From positions 1-20,320 of IMG/VR virus record IMGVR_UViG_3300027801_001189: a stretch of DNA of 20,320 nt; one strand, 5' to 3'. Below the pieces are notes generated by a model, which searched no databases, had not been told where the DNA came from, and worked only from the letters and a program-made list of their open reading frames with translations. This document shows, one piece after another, positions 3,402-11,194 of the stretch. The stretch comes from a virus. The translations under genes and the position numbers were made by a program. How positions within the stretch are numbered: position 1 is the first letter of the stretch; each line of letters begins with the position of its first letter.

Positions 3402-3430
3402 GTTAGCTACCTATCCATTTTTATATATGA

Positions 3431-3494
3431 TTGGGGTTCAAACCGACATTCCGGCTAGATCGGGATTCAGAGCGTCACCCCAACATTTCGGTTT
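3431..3494 (+). ncRNA. Candidate structured RNA with interleaved stems (pseudoknot-like)
   Basis: Two perfect seven-base complementary pairs are interleaved: TTGGGGT (3431-3437) with ACCCCAA (3477-3483), and AAACCGA (3440-3446) with TCGGTTT (3488-3494). Inside them ATTCCG (3448-3453) can pair with CGGGAT (3461-3466), one G-U, closing a seven-base loop. The order a-b-a'-b' is that of an H-type pseudoknot, or else two mutually exclusive stems. The last paired base is directly followed by the terminator hairpin at 3495. It could be the 3' end of the ssb transcript, a small RNA, or a riboswitch/attenuator for the gene at 3546. I could not match it to a named RNA family. Confidence 0.5.
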
Positions 3495-3530
3495 AGCCTC
3501 GTCAGGCGTAATGCTTGGCGGGGCTTTTTA
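3495..3530 (+). terminator. Rho-independent terminator after ssb / before the sialyltransferase fusion
   Basis: AGCCTCGTC (3495-3503) pairs with GGCGGGGCT (3517-3525) in a nine-base stem that includes two G-U pairs. The 13-base loop is followed by a T run up to 3529. It ends the ssb unit 16 bases before the next ATG. Its position directly behind the structured RNA would also suit conditional termination. Confidence 0.8.
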
Positions 3531-3545
3531 CTAAACGGAGCTTAA

Positions 3546-4970
3546 ATGAAACCGATAGGAATAAAACTAAGGAAGAACGACTTTAATCTGGGTGTACCCA
3601 CCCAAAGGGAAATTATTTGTGGCTCAAGAAAATATAAAAACATCAACCTAGATAAACTCGTTGATAGTTTTGAAGTTATTATTCGCCATAACATGCTAAC
3701 GCCAAACAGTGGGTATGGCAAAAGAAATCCAGATAAACAAGTCCTAAATTGCCATATCCATGACAGCTACAATAAGAAGCTATCACTAGACGGATGGGTT
3801 TCAAATTACCAAGAAGAATTTGGTATATCAACAGATCACATTTCTTCGTTCTATGAGTTTCTAAAGTCAGACGATGTAGACTTCAAGTATTTTGAAGACA
3901 ATAACACTTGCCTCATGAGAGACTTGCTGGCGAAGCATGGTATCGAGCATATGATAGAAACCGGTATGCAAATTAGATGCGGTCTTGCATCTGTAGCTGA
4001 CTGTCTACTAAGAGGTGTCAAGCCTTATCTCATAGGATTTGGCATAGAGCGACAAACCGCACTCAACAGACACAACGCAACAAGCAATGCTGGAGTTGAG
4101 TGCCACGATGAGTTCTCTGAAATCAATCTAATTAAAAAACTGCATGAAGCTGGATTGGTTGACGCAACGCTGTGTGCGATTGAAGATAATAGCGAAGTAA
4201 CCATTGACTCTACATTGCTGAGACCAACGCCGTCCAGCCTCAGAATAGTAGAAGAGGAACTAGACAGTGAATATAAATGTTCAATAAAACAGAAAGTCGT
4301 GGCGGTAATCCCAGCAAGGTCTGGAAGTAAAAGGATTAGAAACAAAAACGTTTCATCCTTTGGCGACACCACCCTCGTTGAGAACAAAATAAAACAACTT
4401 CTAAAATGTAAATATGTTGACACGGTAATAGTGGCGACCAACGACCCCATTGTAAAAGAAATTTGCAAAAGCTACGAGGTATCTGTGATGGATAGAGAAG
4501 ATCGTTTTTGCGACGAAGTCTCTGCCACGCCAAACGAAATGATTGGCGACATCGCATCTAGGGTTGACGAGTCGTTTGATATAATTATATGGTCGCACTG
4601 TACCAATCCACTAATTAGGTCTGAAATTTACGACAATGCCCTAAACACTTTTGTGTTATCAAATAAAATTCACGATTCTCTAATTTCAGTGACAGAGATT
4701 AAGAATCACTTTTGGCACAAAACCAAATCAGGTTTCATACCGTTAAACTATAATCCGCAGGGGGAGGAACATCCACTCGCATCTGAACTGGAACCCCTCT
4801 ACTTTCAGGATGGCGGAATATTCATACAGCGTAGGGAAGATATGGTTTCTAATTCTTACTTTTTTGGAAAAAACCCATATCTCTTTACAATAAACCCATA
4901 CTTGTCTATTGATATAAATGAACCGCTTGATATGTTTCTTGCGGAAGCTATCAATCGCACCAAAGTTTAA
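3546..4970 (+). CDS. Fusion of GT29-like sialyltransferase domain and CMP-sialic acid synthetase (NeuA-like) domain
   Basis: The 474-residue protein has two parts. From residue 250 on it reads KVVAVIPARSGSKRIRNKN, the nucleotide-binding signature of CMP-N-acylneuraminate cytidylyltransferases (NeuA family), which activate sialic-acid-like sugars with CTP. The following DREDRFCDE and LYFQDGGIFIQRRED segments also fit. The first ~245 residues resemble GT29 sialyltransferases: VDSFEVIIRHN (39-49) like sialylmotif L, GLASVADCLL...PYLIGFG (146-166) like motif S, and His187-x4-Glu192 like motif VS. One polypeptide would then make the CMP-sugar and transfer it. The GT29 match is by motif order only and the sugar may be a relative such as Kdo, legionaminic or pseudaminic acid. 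GGAG (3537-3540) supports the ATG. It stands alone between a terminator and a promoter. Confidence 0.8.
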   Translation: MKPIGIKLRKNDFNLGVPTQREIICGSRKYKNINLDKLVDSFEVIIRHNMLTPNSGYGKRNPDKQVLNCHIHDSYNKKLSLDGWVSNYQEEFGISTDHISSFYEFLKSDDVDFKYFEDNNTCLMRDLLAKHGIEHMIETGMQIRCGLASVADCLLRGVKPYLIGFGIERQTALNRHNATSNAGVECHDEFSEINLIKKLHEAGLVDATLCAIEDNSEVTIDSTLLRPTPSSLRIVEEELDSEYKCSIKQKVVAVIPARSGSKRIRNKNVSSFGDTTLVENKIKQLLKCKYVDTVIVATNDPIVKEICKSYEVSVMDREDRFCDEVSATPNEMIGDIASRVDESFDIIIWSHCTNPLIRSEIYDNALNTFVLSNKIHDSLISVTEIKNHFWHKTKSGFIPLNYNPQGEEHPLASELEPLYFQDGGIFIQRREDMVSNSYFFGKNPYLFTINPYLSIDINEPLDMFLAEAINRTKV

Positions 4971-4988: not shown

Positions 4989-5017
4989 TTGACAAACGAG
5001 ACGATATATACTATAAT
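4989..5017 (+). promoter_or_regulatory. Perfect consensus sigma70 promoter (TTGACA-N17-TATAAT)
   Basis: TTGACA at 4989-4994 and TATAAT at 5012-5017 are separated by exactly 17 bases. It lies in the 92-base gap between the sialyltransferase fusion and the membrane-protein gene at 5063. Transcription should start near 5024 and run through the GT4 gene and the sigma-like gene. Confidence 0.9.
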
Positions 5018-5062: not shown

Positions 5063-5509
5063 ATGTACCAACCAGAAGTATCAACATTCTTTGCACAAGC
5101 ACTGTCTTGGGCATTTTTTATCATCCTAATAGGAGGCGGTGTACAAGGATGGCTAAACGCCAAACCTCTTCAGACCCCAGACATCCTGAAAGACCTAGCA
5201 AACGACAGGATACAGCTAGGATACATTGACGACAACGTTAACAGCCAAGTAAACGTTATCCTTAGCGAAGATGGAGACGAGATTGCTGCTATGAAAAAGC
5301 AGATTCAACTTCTTAAACTCAAGAAAGAACTTGAGTCGCTACAGGAAGAAAGCTCCGTTGATAATGTTTTCTTTGAAGAATGTGTAGATACCATGATTGC
5401 ACTTGGCGAGAAAAAGACAGAGGCTAAGAAAAAAACCAAGCATATACTAGCTAAAAACCCTAAAATAAACACTGTAGATTCATTTATACAACAGGCTTAC
5501 AAATCATGA
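5063..5509 (+). CDS. Membrane-anchored protein with RuvA domain III-like C-terminus
   Basis: The 148-residue product has one hydrophobic segment near the start (about residues 9-30, LSWAFFIILIGGGVQGWL). A charged region with a coiled coil follows at about 75-97 (MKKQIQLLKLKKELESLQEE). The C-terminal 45 residues (CVDTMIALGEKKTEAKKKTKHIL...VDSFIQQAYK) resemble the three-helix domain III of RuvA, the part that contacts the RuvB motor. A soluble Holliday-junction function seems unlikely for a membrane protein, so the domain may bind another protein. It is the first gene behind a consensus promoter. The start is not supported by a clear ribosome site; an out-of-frame ATG lies at 5058. The stop overlaps the GT4 gene as ATGA. 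The RuvA resemblance is by eye. Confidence 0.65.
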   Translation: MYQPEVSTFFAQALSWAFFIILIGGGVQGWLNAKPLQTPDILKDLANDRIQLGYIDDNVNSQVNVILSEDGDEIAAMKKQIQLLKLKKELESLQEESSVDNVFFEECVDTMIALGEKKTEAKKKTKHILAKNPKINTVDSFIQQAYKS

Positions 5510-6582
5510 ATATAAACTTAATGACCCCAATCAACCAGCTTGGTTATGGCGTAGCGGGATTAAATATCCTCAAAGCTCTACAGGCTGAACACAATGTTTC
5601 TCTACATATGATAGGTCAACCTCAAGTTACCAGTCAAGCAGATGCAGACGCTGTAACAAAAGGTATAGAAACATCTAAGATGTTTGATCCAGAAGCACCC
5701 TGTATCAAAATTTGGCATCAGAACCAGATGGCAGAACGTGTAGGTTCAGGTAAACTTATTGGATTTCCTATCTTTGAGCTTGACACATTTACTGACCTAG
5801 AGAAGCATCATCTACAGTCTTGTGATGAGCTATTTGTTTGTTCGCAATGGGCTAAGGGTGTTATCAAAAATAATTATGATTGGAGTATTCCAGCCTACAG
5901 AGAACGTGGGGTTCACCAACGGGTAGAAGTCGTTCCTCTTGGCGTGGACGCAGAAATTTTCAAACCTGCATCAGTAAGACAGGATGACAAGACAATCTTC
6001 TTTAATTGTGGTAAATGGGAGGTACGCAAAGGACACGATTTCCTGATTGATGCTTTTAAGATTGTTGAAAAACACGATCCTAACGTTGAATTGTGGATGA
6101 TGTGTACAAACCCCTTCAATAGCCCTGAAGAAGAGAATAAATGGAAAATGCTATATAGCCACCCTAAAGTAAAGATTATTCCAAGGGCTGAGACACAGCA
6201 GGAAGTGTATAATATAATGTCTCAAGTTGACTGCGGTGTATTTCCTTCTCGCGGAGAGGGTTGGAATCTTGAGCTTTTAGAGATGATGTCTTGCGGTAAA
6301 CACGTAATAGCGACAGATTATTCTGCTCATACTGAATTTTGCACTAAAGAGAACAGTGGTTTAGTGGCGATAAAAGATGTAGAGCCAGCAGTTGACGGTA
6401 AATGGTTCTTTGGTCAGGGTAACTGGGCTAAGATTCATGAGCATGAGATTTTTGAACTAAGCCTTAAAATGCAACGTTTTATTCAGGATCGCAAGGGAAC
6501 TGTAAACGAAGCAGGAATTGAGACGGCCAGACAATTCAGTTGGAAAAACTCCGCAGAGGAAATAATTAAACATGTTGGATAA
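5506..6582 (+). CDS. GT4-family glycosyltransferase
   Basis: The 358-residue protein is a GT-B fold glycosyltransferase. The N-terminal half starts with MTPINQLGYGVAGLNILKAL, the acceptor-side glycine-rich loop. The linker carries VEVVPLGVDAEIFKP, typical of GT4 enzymes. The C-terminal donor-binding half contains FFNCGKWEVRKGHD and the EX7E motif, Glu251 to Glu259 in EGWNLELLE, followed by MMSCGKHVIATDYSAHTEF. GT4 enzymes transfer a sugar from a nucleotide donor with retention of configuration in the cytoplasm. The acceptor is unknown; glycosylation of phage protein, modified DNA, or host surface glycan are all possible. It overlaps the preceding gene by four bases and the next by eleven, so it is tightly coupled. 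It is complete and shows no missing core motif. Confidence 0.88.
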   Translation: MNINLMTPINQLGYGVAGLNILKALQAEHNVSLHMIGQPQVTSQADADAVTKGIETSKMFDPEAPCIKIWHQNQMAERVGSGKLIGFPIFELDTFTDLEKHHLQSCDELFVCSQWAKGVIKNNYDWSIPAYRERGVHQRVEVVPLGVDAEIFKPASVRQDDKTIFFNCGKWEVRKGHDFLIDAFKIVEKHDPNVELWMMCTNPFNSPEEENKWKMLYSHPKVKIIPRAETQQEVYNIMSQVDCGVFPSRGEGWNLELLEMMSCGKHVIATDYSAHTEFCTKENSGLVAIKDVEPAVDGKWFFGQGNWAKIHEHEIFELSLKMQRFIQDRKGTVNEAGIETARQFSWKNSAEEIIKHVG

Positions 6583-9633: not shown

Positions 9634-10557
9634 ATGGAATTTAACAGTCCTAGAGATCTGTTAAATGCCTATAGAGACGGTTTTGCAGGAAGCGTATGCG
9701 ATCCAGAAGAGACCGCAGAACTTTTAGCCAAGCTAAAGACACCTCTTTTTGGTGCTACGGCTTTTAGACTATACGGTAGCGGAGAGGGTAAACTCTCCCT
9801 GCCGTTTAAGTCTTTATTAAAGTTCGACTCAAGCTTCGGCCCGTCTGAGAGGCAGACAACAGGAGATTGCGTAAGTCATTCCACAAGAAACGCTGTTGAC
9901 ATAACAAGAGCTGTGGAGATTGACGTAAATGGCGAGTCAGAATCTTTTGAGGCTCGCAGTGCCACCGAAGGCATATATCAATCTAGAGGCCACAGATCAC
10001 AGGGTATGACCTGTTCAGGAGCCGCTAAGTACGTCCACTCTAAGGGCGGTATTCTACTAAGAAAAGACTACGGAAAAGTAGATCTATCTAAATATAATTC
10101 AGGTCTTGGTGCTAACCACAAGATACCCTCCAGTGTATATATAACGGAGGCTAAAAAGCATCAGGTCAAAACTATCTCAATGATAACAACGGTACAAGAG
10201 GCTAGAGATGCACTTGGCAACGGTTACGCTATTTCTGTATGCTCTGGGCATGGGTTCAGTAGTCGCAGGGATAGCAACGGGATCGCTAAACGAGGTTCTG
10301 GTTGGAACCACGCCATGGTTTGGATCGCTTGCGATGATACTCATAAGCGATTCAAAGAAACCCTCTTCTTAGTTCAAAACAGTTGGGGCAAATGGAACAG
10401 TGGCCCTAGAGTACACGATCAACCAGAAGGGAGTTTCTGGATTAGAGAGAAGGATGCTAGAGGGATGTTAGCAGAGCAAGGATCTTGGGTATTTAGCGAC
10501 GTGGATGGTTTCCCAGCTAGAAACCTGCCAGATTACGGCACAACATCATACCTATAG
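9634..10557 (+). CDS. Papain-like (C1-type) cysteine peptidase
   Basis: The 307-residue protein has the papain-like catalytic layout. Cys79 lies in RQTTGDCVSHS, His226 in GWNHAMVWIA, and Asn249 in VQNSWGKWNSGP, the 'NSWG' block typical of C1 peptidases. Spacing and order fit the family. There is no signal peptide, and the first ~65 residues form a separate N-terminal part that could be a propeptide or targeting segment. Known members cut proteins; in a phage it could process virion proteins, attack host proteins, or cut peptide cross-links at lysis because it follows a holin-like gene at three bases. GAGGA (9622-9626) supports the ATG. The catalytic triad is complete, so it is probably active. 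The substrate cannot be decided. Confidence 0.82.
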   Translation: MEFNSPRDLLNAYRDGFAGSVCDPEETAELLAKLKTPLFGATAFRLYGSGEGKLSLPFKSLLKFDSSFGPSERQTTGDCVSHSTRNAVDITRAVEIDVNGESESFEARSATEGIYQSRGHRSQGMTCSGAAKYVHSKGGILLRKDYGKVDLSKYNSGLGANHKIPSSVYITEAKKHQVKTISMITTVQEARDALGNGYAISVCSGHGFSSRRDSNGIAKRGSGWNHAMVWIACDDTHKRFKETLFLVQNSWGKWNSGPRVHDQPEGSFWIREKDARGMLAEQGSWVFSDVDGFPARNLPDYGTTSYL

Positions 10558-10566
10558 GGTAATATT

Positions 10567-10995
10567 ATGAAACTATTAAGTACTTGGCTTTTAGCCTCAG
10601 CGTTGTTTGGTTTTAGCTTTACTGCAAGCAATCAAGAAGTAAATTACAGACCTTACATTTCTACCAATCTAGCCAAAGTTATAATGACCGACAGCGACGA
10701 CGAAGTCGTAGAAGAAAAATGTGACGGGTCTGGATGGATCACTCACGGAGATGGCCACAAAACAGAGTGTCCCGGATGCTCCGCCTGTAAGAACAATACT
10801 CCGGAAGAATCGACACCCACTGTAGAACCTTCACAGCAAGATCTTAAAAAAAAAAGAACCTTCCCAAGACTCTTTGATTTTTTCAACAGAGCCAGAATAC
10901 TACATCTATCACTTTGGAGCGAAATGGTGTGGTCCATGCGAGAAAATGAAACAGCAGACTTGGGCAAGCACGAAAGTGAAAGAAGCTATAAATAA
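10567..10995 (+). CDS. Exported Cys/His-motif protein, upstream frame of a probable frameshifted thioredoxin
   Basis: The first ~95 residues look real. There is a signal peptide (MKLLSTWLLASALFGFSFTA, cleavage near residue 20), a linker, then CDGSGWITHGDGHKTECPGC with Cys52, His60, His64, Cys68, Cys71 and Cys74, which could bind zinc and resembles the DnaJ-type CxGSG knuckle. A Pro/Ser/Thr/Glu-rich linker follows. After the A10 run at 10846-10855 this frame turns into unlikely sequence (RTFPRLFDFFNRARILHL) and runs to a stop at 10995. The +1 frame from the same point gives a clean thioredoxin domain. The natural gene is therefore probably 10567-11194 with a one-base shift at the A run, by slippage, by mutation or as a sequence error. 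The fused product would be a periplasmic or surface thioredoxin-like protein. Confidence 0.6.
   Translation: MKLLSTWLLASALFGFSFTASNQEVNYRPYISTNLAKVIMTDSDDEVVEEKCDGSGWITHGDGHKTECPGCSACKNNTPEESTPTVEPSQQDLKKKRTFPRLFDFFNRARILHLSLWSEMVWSMRENETADLGKHESERSYK
10846..10855 (+). other. A10 run, probable frameshift or slippage site
   Basis: Ten consecutive A residues follow CTT in the linker of the exported protein. Reading nine or twelve A residues would join the signal-peptide frame to the thioredoxin frame; the +1 frame is open from 10826 on. Long A runs are known sites of polymerase slippage and also of sequencing error, and the two cannot be told apart here. Confidence 0.6.
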
Positions 10996-11194
10996 TAGGA
11001 GGGCGAAGCTTTTCATTTACGATGAAGCGAACCCAAAACATAAGAAACTTTTTTCATACTATAAAGTAAAGTCTTATCCAACAATTATTTTTTTAAACAA
11101 AGACGAATTAAGTAAACCTCTACACAGAGCTTCTGGATTTGTTGATGCGACAAAAATGGCTAAAACTATAAACGAGAAAATAAAAGATGAATGA
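10874..11194 (+). CDS. Thioredoxin-fold domain with CGPC active site
   Basis: The frame encodes YYIYHFGAKWCGPCEKMKQQTW, with the thioredoxin redox motif WCGPC, and later VKSYPTIIFL carrying the cis-proline next to the active site. About 100 residues give a nearly complete thioredoxin fold. The only possible separate start near here is a TTG at 10874 without a good ribosome site, whereas the open frame extends upstream to 10826, at the A10 run. The domain is therefore probably the C-terminal part of the exported protein that begins at 10567. If exported it would reduce or isomerise disulfides in the periplasm or reduce partner envelope proteins; if made alone it could be a cytoplasmic reductant for the NrdA encoded downstream. 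It overlaps the next gene by eight bases. Confidence 0.8.
   Translation: MIFSTEPEYYIYHFGAKWCGPCEKMKQQTWASTKVKEAINNRRAKLFIYDEANPKHKKLFSYYKVKSYPTIIFLNKDELSKPLHRASGFVDATKMAKTINEKIKDE

Follow-up and report, generated by a model that had tools for sequence, protein, structure and literature searches.

A phage gene joining a divergent GT29-type sialyltransferase-like domain to a NeuA-type CMP-nonulosonate synthetase domain

The activation of sialic acid and its transfer onto glycans are normally the work of separate proteins, and other phages and bacteria use separate neighbouring genes for the two steps. Could a single phage polypeptide both activate such a sugar and transfer it? The question is raised by a gene at positions 3546-4970 of IMG/VR record IMGVR_UViG_3300027801_001189, a linear virus record whose 20,320 bases, analysed as a whole, are called the window here; the gene, its domains and motifs, the signals that flank it and the glycosyltransferase gene of the next unit all lie on the plus strand. 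The window carries phage RNR, PhoH and UvsX-like genes, and its small RNR subunit has its nearest relatives, at about 50% identity, in marine myophages, Pseudoalteromonas phage J2-1 for example. It has no nucleotide-level match among phage records, and an Rfam search of it returned no match. Two genes farther along merit a remark: 9634-10557 shows a papain-like pattern (GDC...H...QNSWG), without a Pfam match, and may encode a cysteine protease, and 10874-11194 is thioredoxin-like and, as called, shares about 120 nt with the ORF before it; its true start is probably later.

An earlier note, made from the letters alone, had read 3546-4970 as a sialyltransferase-like domain fused to a CMP-sialic acid synthetase. 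The frame is exactly as described there: the ORF list gives one uninterrupted run of 474 codons with an ATG start, encoding 474 aa, and direct reading of the sequence places a ribosome-binding-site-like GGAG (3537-3540) 5 nt upstream of the ATG. Directly upstream of the gene lies an intrinsic-terminator-like hairpin with a 14-pair stem and a T-tract (3495-3525). The region 3402-3545 folds with a z of -3.4, and this structured leader, with the terminator-like hairpin at its end, is a possible attenuator. Directly downstream is an exact (12/12) sigma-70 consensus promoter, TTGACA-N17-TATAAT, at 4989-5017. It would drive the next transcription unit, which contains a GT4-type glycosyltransferase (5506-6582; PF13692, E 4.7e-19; phrog_2170, E 6.5e-28).

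The C-terminal domain, residues 250-474 (4293-4967), matches the Pfam model PF02348 (CTP_transf_3) at E 2.4e-20 and 73.7 bits, above the cut-off of 22.6, and its best solved structure is a NeuA, that of Neisseria meningitidis (1eyr, E 5.7e-10). In alignments the CTP-binding signature IPAR-x-GSK-x4-KN is intact as IPARSGSKRIRNKN; the NeuA signature that the note had announced is present as VVAVIPARSGSKR, at residues 251-263 (4296-4334) instead of 250-263. The sugar pocket is another matter. Alignments show an atypical segment, HPLASELEPLYFQDGGIFI (residues 409-427; 4770-4826), in which HPLASELEPLY stands where most NeuAs have R-x-x-Q, and relative to the N. meningitidis enzyme the domain has His351 for Gln and Asn458 for the second Asp as well as HPLAS for R-x-x-Q. 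The closest NeuA found is encoded on a Paracoccus liaowanqingii plasmid (WP_139615548.1, annotated 'acylneuraminate cytidylyltransferase family protein'; 43% identity over residues 248-468, E 5e-51), and the pocket variant is common to the window protein (HPLASELEPLYFQDGGIFIQ) and this Paracoccus locus, P0002 (HPPASSLPPLYAQDGGIFIQ; also HPPASSLPPLYAQDGGIFI). A Subdoligranulum NeuA of similar type lacks R-x-x-Q too, and the variant is therefore not diagnostic of the donor sugar. The top NCBIfam equivalog is PseF (TIGR03584), whose 66.3 bits are far below the cut-off of 205.7; KdsB models match weakly. PF02348 bears out the NeuA part of the proposed CMP-sialic acid synthetase; with so atypical a pocket, and with a top equivalog that falls so far short, sialic acid is only a candidate for the sugar. 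Given that pocket, CMP-nonulosonate synthetase is preferred as a label to CMP-Neu5Ac synthetase, and from these comparisons we call the domain a putative NeuA-type CMP-nonulosonate synthetase, not assigned to a particular sugar.

The N-terminal domain, residues 1-235 (3546-4250), is joined to it by a linker at residues 236-249 (4251-4292), placed there by low pLDDT at 233-245 and by the end of N-domain homology in a stand-alone homologue of 242 aa. None of the Pfam, NCBIfam and PHROG models detects residues 1-249 directly. PF00777, the GT29 model, gives no match at E<=1, whereas it matches the other viral GT29s scanned at E 1e-11 to 1e-30. What links the domain to GT29 is comparison with those viral proteins. 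A profile of 25 other, PF00777-positive viral GT29s, built without the window sequence, scores it at 42.9 bits (E 2.7e-11), against a best score of 14.0 bits in 5,000 shuffles of the domain, and scores the stand-alone homologue at 38.7 bits. Three PF00777-positive viral GT29s are enough for a profile to detect the window protein (E 2.7e-6), and hhalign of the two-member N-domain family against a ten-member GT29 profile gives a probability of 95% (E 1.8e-8) over residues 14-207, covering all the motifs. The GT29 assignment made earlier thus has profile support, but for a divergent member of the family: on these sequence comparisons, the N-terminal domain is a remote, divergent GT29-type sialyltransferase domain.

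GT29 enzymes are inverting, need no metal and use a histidine as base; the VS motif has the consensus H-x4-E, and its His is the proposed catalytic base (PMC8433944). Alignment with viral GT29s locates the corresponding blocks in the window protein. The equivalent of sialylmotif L (IICGS...VDSFEVIIRHN...NCH; residues 23-70, 3612-3755) contains VDSFEVIIRHN at residues 39-49, the R-x-N core of the motif, and is missing the G-S-K-T stretch. That of sialylmotif S, RCGLASVADCLLRGVKPYLIGFG (residues 144-166; 3975-4043), includes CGLASVADCLL..IGFG at residues 145-166. A degenerate motif III and the VS motif H187-x4-E192 follow at 4071-4121. Motif III, (H/y)-Y-(Y/W/F/h)-(D/E/q/g), is HYWE in relatives; here His176 lies near its column and the aromatic residue is absent. 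When eight sequences, viral GT29s among them, are aligned, R47, N49, G146 and E192 never vary and H187 matches the VS His in seven of the eight; H187-x4-E192 also lines up with HDGDFE in porcine ST3Gal1. The three blocks first picked out from the letters exceed chance, as the profile score against the shuffles shows, and residues 47, 49, 187 and 192 do fall on GT29 motif columns. In sum, the domain resembles GT29 sialyltransferases (CAZy GT29, PF00777) in R-x-N of motif L, in the Gly and GFG of motif S, in H-x4-E, in motif order and spacing and in the company of NeuA, a neighbour in many cases, and its predicted fold would be consistent with a GT-A variant; it differs in being PF00777-negative, degenerate in motif III and G-S-K-T, and fused to NeuA.

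The N-terminal fold and the placing of the motif residues had been set beforehand as refuting tests, and the reading was refuted by neither: the best matches among solved structures proved to be GT29 sialyltransferases together with the GT42 enzyme CstII, and the residues lie as just described. AlphaFold run on the full protein as a single sequence gave no usable model (pLDDT 35); run on the N-terminal domain with the eight-sequence alignment it gave a model of moderate confidence, with a pLDDT of 66 and a pTM of 0.68. The first 24 PDB matches of this model in Foldseek are all sialyltransferases, at a modest TM of about 0.44, headed by human ST8SiaIII (E 7.3e-5), ST6GalNAc2, bacterial CstII in third place and ST3Gal1. 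Since the alignment contained GT29 rows, the match is consistent with GT29 and is not independent proof. Matches among viral models include proteins named GT29 or sialyltransferase. One of these matches, a 492-aa 'Glycosyl transferase family 29' protein of an uncultured Caudovirales phage (UniProt A0A6J5NLG3), is matched over about half its length, and the remainder could be a second fusion.

How are the two functions arranged in other viruses? The closest relative of the N-terminal domain, the 242-aa stand-alone homologue mentioned above, is encoded by a phage represented by three contigs, IMGVR_UViG_3300005918_000027 (L152) and two near-identical to it, with a PhoH-like match. It is 35% identical over 243 aa (E 8e-43) and keeps R47, N49, G146, H187 and E192. 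Its gene is followed in the same direction by an NAD-dependent epimerase, a NeuB + TIM-barrel fusion, a PhyH-like gene and NeuA. This homologue is thus like the N-terminal domain across its whole length, in its key residues and in belonging to a pathway operon (NeuB, NeuA), and differs in being a separate gene with NeuA four genes downstream. The NeuB fusion of this phage (L155:9605-11503) joins NeuB and a xylose-isomerase-like TIM barrel in one ORF. The Paracoccus NeuA likewise has a GT29 neighbour, a PF00777-positive 'glycosyltransferase family 29 protein' gene, and shares the pocket variant HPxASxLxPLYxQDGGIFIQ; it differs in being a separate gene, oriented divergently from the GT29 gene, and there is no NeuB within about 10 kb of it.

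When viral contigs were scanned with the NeuA signature, considerably more than 100 NeuA loci came out, several of them with a separate GT29 gene adjoining NeuA. A second scan, for GT29 only, detected a relative in 324 viral stretches, of which the best 80 were examined. They hold 74 distinct other GT29 ORFs, with NeuA in the flank of at least 28 and NeuB in that of at least 17, and with NeuA at 300 nt or less from at least 14; the retrieved flanks are of finite length and these neighbour counts are therefore lower bounds. Together with the finds of the NeuA-led scan, the survey took in about 94 distinct viral GT29 ORFs, that of the window and about 93 others, and none of the others is fused to NeuA: GT29 and NeuA share one ORF in the window only. 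The phage survey suggested in the earlier note therefore found the two domains as separate neighbours in many viral contigs and the fusion in one. Domains that are fused in one genome and repeated neighbours elsewhere are a classic sign of action in one pathway.

Other arrangements turned up in the viral contigs. Tandem runs of four or five GT29 genes per viral contig (L189:2808-5675, L222:4304-7839, L227:4989-9582) look as if the genes had multiplied. Other GT29 fusions, with the GT29 domain C-terminal, occur in viral-class contigs (L212/L213:3585-5588, L020:1758-3176, L192:4143-5558, L236:4431-5567); their N-terminal parts look, on reading, like glycosyltransferases or methyltransferases, and the model scan covered L020 only. 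One viral NeuA has a confirmed C-terminal cupin (L123:712-1854), and the extensions of two more look alike (L038:2731-3864, L089:646-1824). In tblastn against 50,697 phage records the full protein, the N-terminal domain and the stand-alone homologue had no match, and two scans of viral contigs with single-sequence patterns gave no true relative; L002 was an out-of-frame chance match and L003 a chance pattern match. Two scans of bacterial genomes found no relative of the N-terminal domain and so no cellular source, but they used short exact-type patterns only, which makes them weak evidence of absence.

What, then, would the protein do? Comparison identifies both domains, and from these identities we infer catalysis, substrate, acceptor and role. 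The reading that we favour, with a probability of roughly three in four, is that one polypeptide makes a CMP-nonulosonate and transfers the same sugar to a glycan. The NeuA-type domain would condense CTP with a free nonulosonic acid, a sialic-acid-type sugar, to give the CMP-sugar. The GT29-type domain would bind this through the Rossmann core of motifs L and S, and His187 would serve as general base for transfer with inversion onto a glycan hydroxyl. There is no NeuB gene within the 20-kb window; the free acid would be supplied by the host or by a NeuB gene outside the fragment. The acceptor would most likely be a glycan on the surface of the infected cell, or else one that the phage encodes and builds with neighbouring glycosyltransferases such as the GT4-type enzyme at 5506-6582. 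Surface mimicry or receptor masking, as suggested in the earlier note, may be the purpose.

One rival reading concerns the donor. The domains may be as described and the acid be another CMP-activated one, Kdo or an unusual ulosonate, in place of a nine-carbon sialic-type acid. HPLASELEPLY in the position of R-x-x-Q, the weak KdsB matches and the Paracoccus relative without a nearby NeuB would all suit such a donor, and plant GT29-like proteins have been proposed to act on Kdo-type donors. We nevertheless consider it unlikely, given that PseF is the best NCBIfam match and NeuA the best solved structure, that the phage with the stand-alone homologue encodes NeuB, and that the Subdoligranulum NeuA robs the pocket of diagnostic value. 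Might the N-terminal domain instead be a GT29 relative that no longer transfers and now helps the NeuA enzyme by binding sugar or by targeting? A degenerate motif III, the loss of G-S-K-T and the silence of Pfam could be taken that way. Yet R47, N49, G146, H187 and E192 have survived, while so much else has changed, both in this domain and in its homologue at 35% identity. Their survival points to a selected active site and makes an inactive domain quite improbable.

That the domain belongs to another Rossmann-like family, such as GT42 or the MptE-like proteins, is suggested by the third place of CstII among the structure matches and by one related viral ORF on which MptE-like and GT29 models overlap. 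Single-sequence hhalign, however, gave no signal with one PF06002-positive GT42 protein or with one MptE-like protein, a weak one with one single GT29 and, as reported above, a strong one once a GT29 alignment was used. The GT42 model PF06002 (CST-I) has no Pfam match in the window protein, and GT52 and GT80 appear neither among Pfam matches for residues 1-249 nor among the structure matches of the N-domain model; a GT42 gene search of 50 viral records matched nowhere, controls included. We regard membership of another family as highly improbable. It is scarcely to be expected, finally, that there is no functional fusion, whether because two genes were wrongly run together in assembly or sequencing or because NeuA is made mainly from an internal start. 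The window is a single metagenomic contig with no second copy, and an in-frame GTG does occur at residue 252, but this GTG, the sole in-frame start near the junction, has no Shine-Dalgarno sequence, the 474 codons run without a stop, the two sides of the junction are even in GC content (39.9% and 39.2%), and the join coincides with the domain boundary given by the stand-alone homologue.

GT29 is established in bacteria (PMC5811610), and 'GT29' phage proteins are already in databases, so that the family itself is nothing new in either. Its natural fusion to NeuA, of which there was no other instance in the collections searched or in the open-licence literature, appears to be new within those collections. 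An engineered fusion of CMP-Neu5Ac synthetase and sialyltransferase exists (Gilbert et al. 1998, Nat Biotechnol 16:769, cited in PMC13159100). It resembles the window protein in uniting on one polypeptide the two activities proposed here, and differs in being man-made where the phage fusion is natural. It was reportedly built from Neisseria enzymes and not from GT29. Among phage genes, epaA and epaB of Acinetobacter prophages alter nonulosonic acids of the host surface by pseudaminic acid epimerisation (PMC12053666); they share with the window gene, on the reading favoured here, the phage-encoded modification of nonulosonates and differ in acting by epimerisation, as against activation and transfer.

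A fuller proposal, which we offer tentatively and would lean slightly against, is that this protein is a natural CMP-nonulosonate synthetase/GT29-type transferase on a single polypeptide, the founder of a divergent branch of phage GT29s whose sugar specificity is unusual, and that it couples donor synthesis to transfer inside the infected cell, a setting in which free CMP-nonulosonate may be scarce. The man-made fusion is a biotechnological tool; with a natural one, the importance of coupling can be tested without any engineering. By the survey, GT29, the family of animal sialyltransferases, is common in phage contigs together with NeuA and NeuB, and the idea that phages drive the sialylation of glycans on bacteria or virions thus becomes open to direct test.
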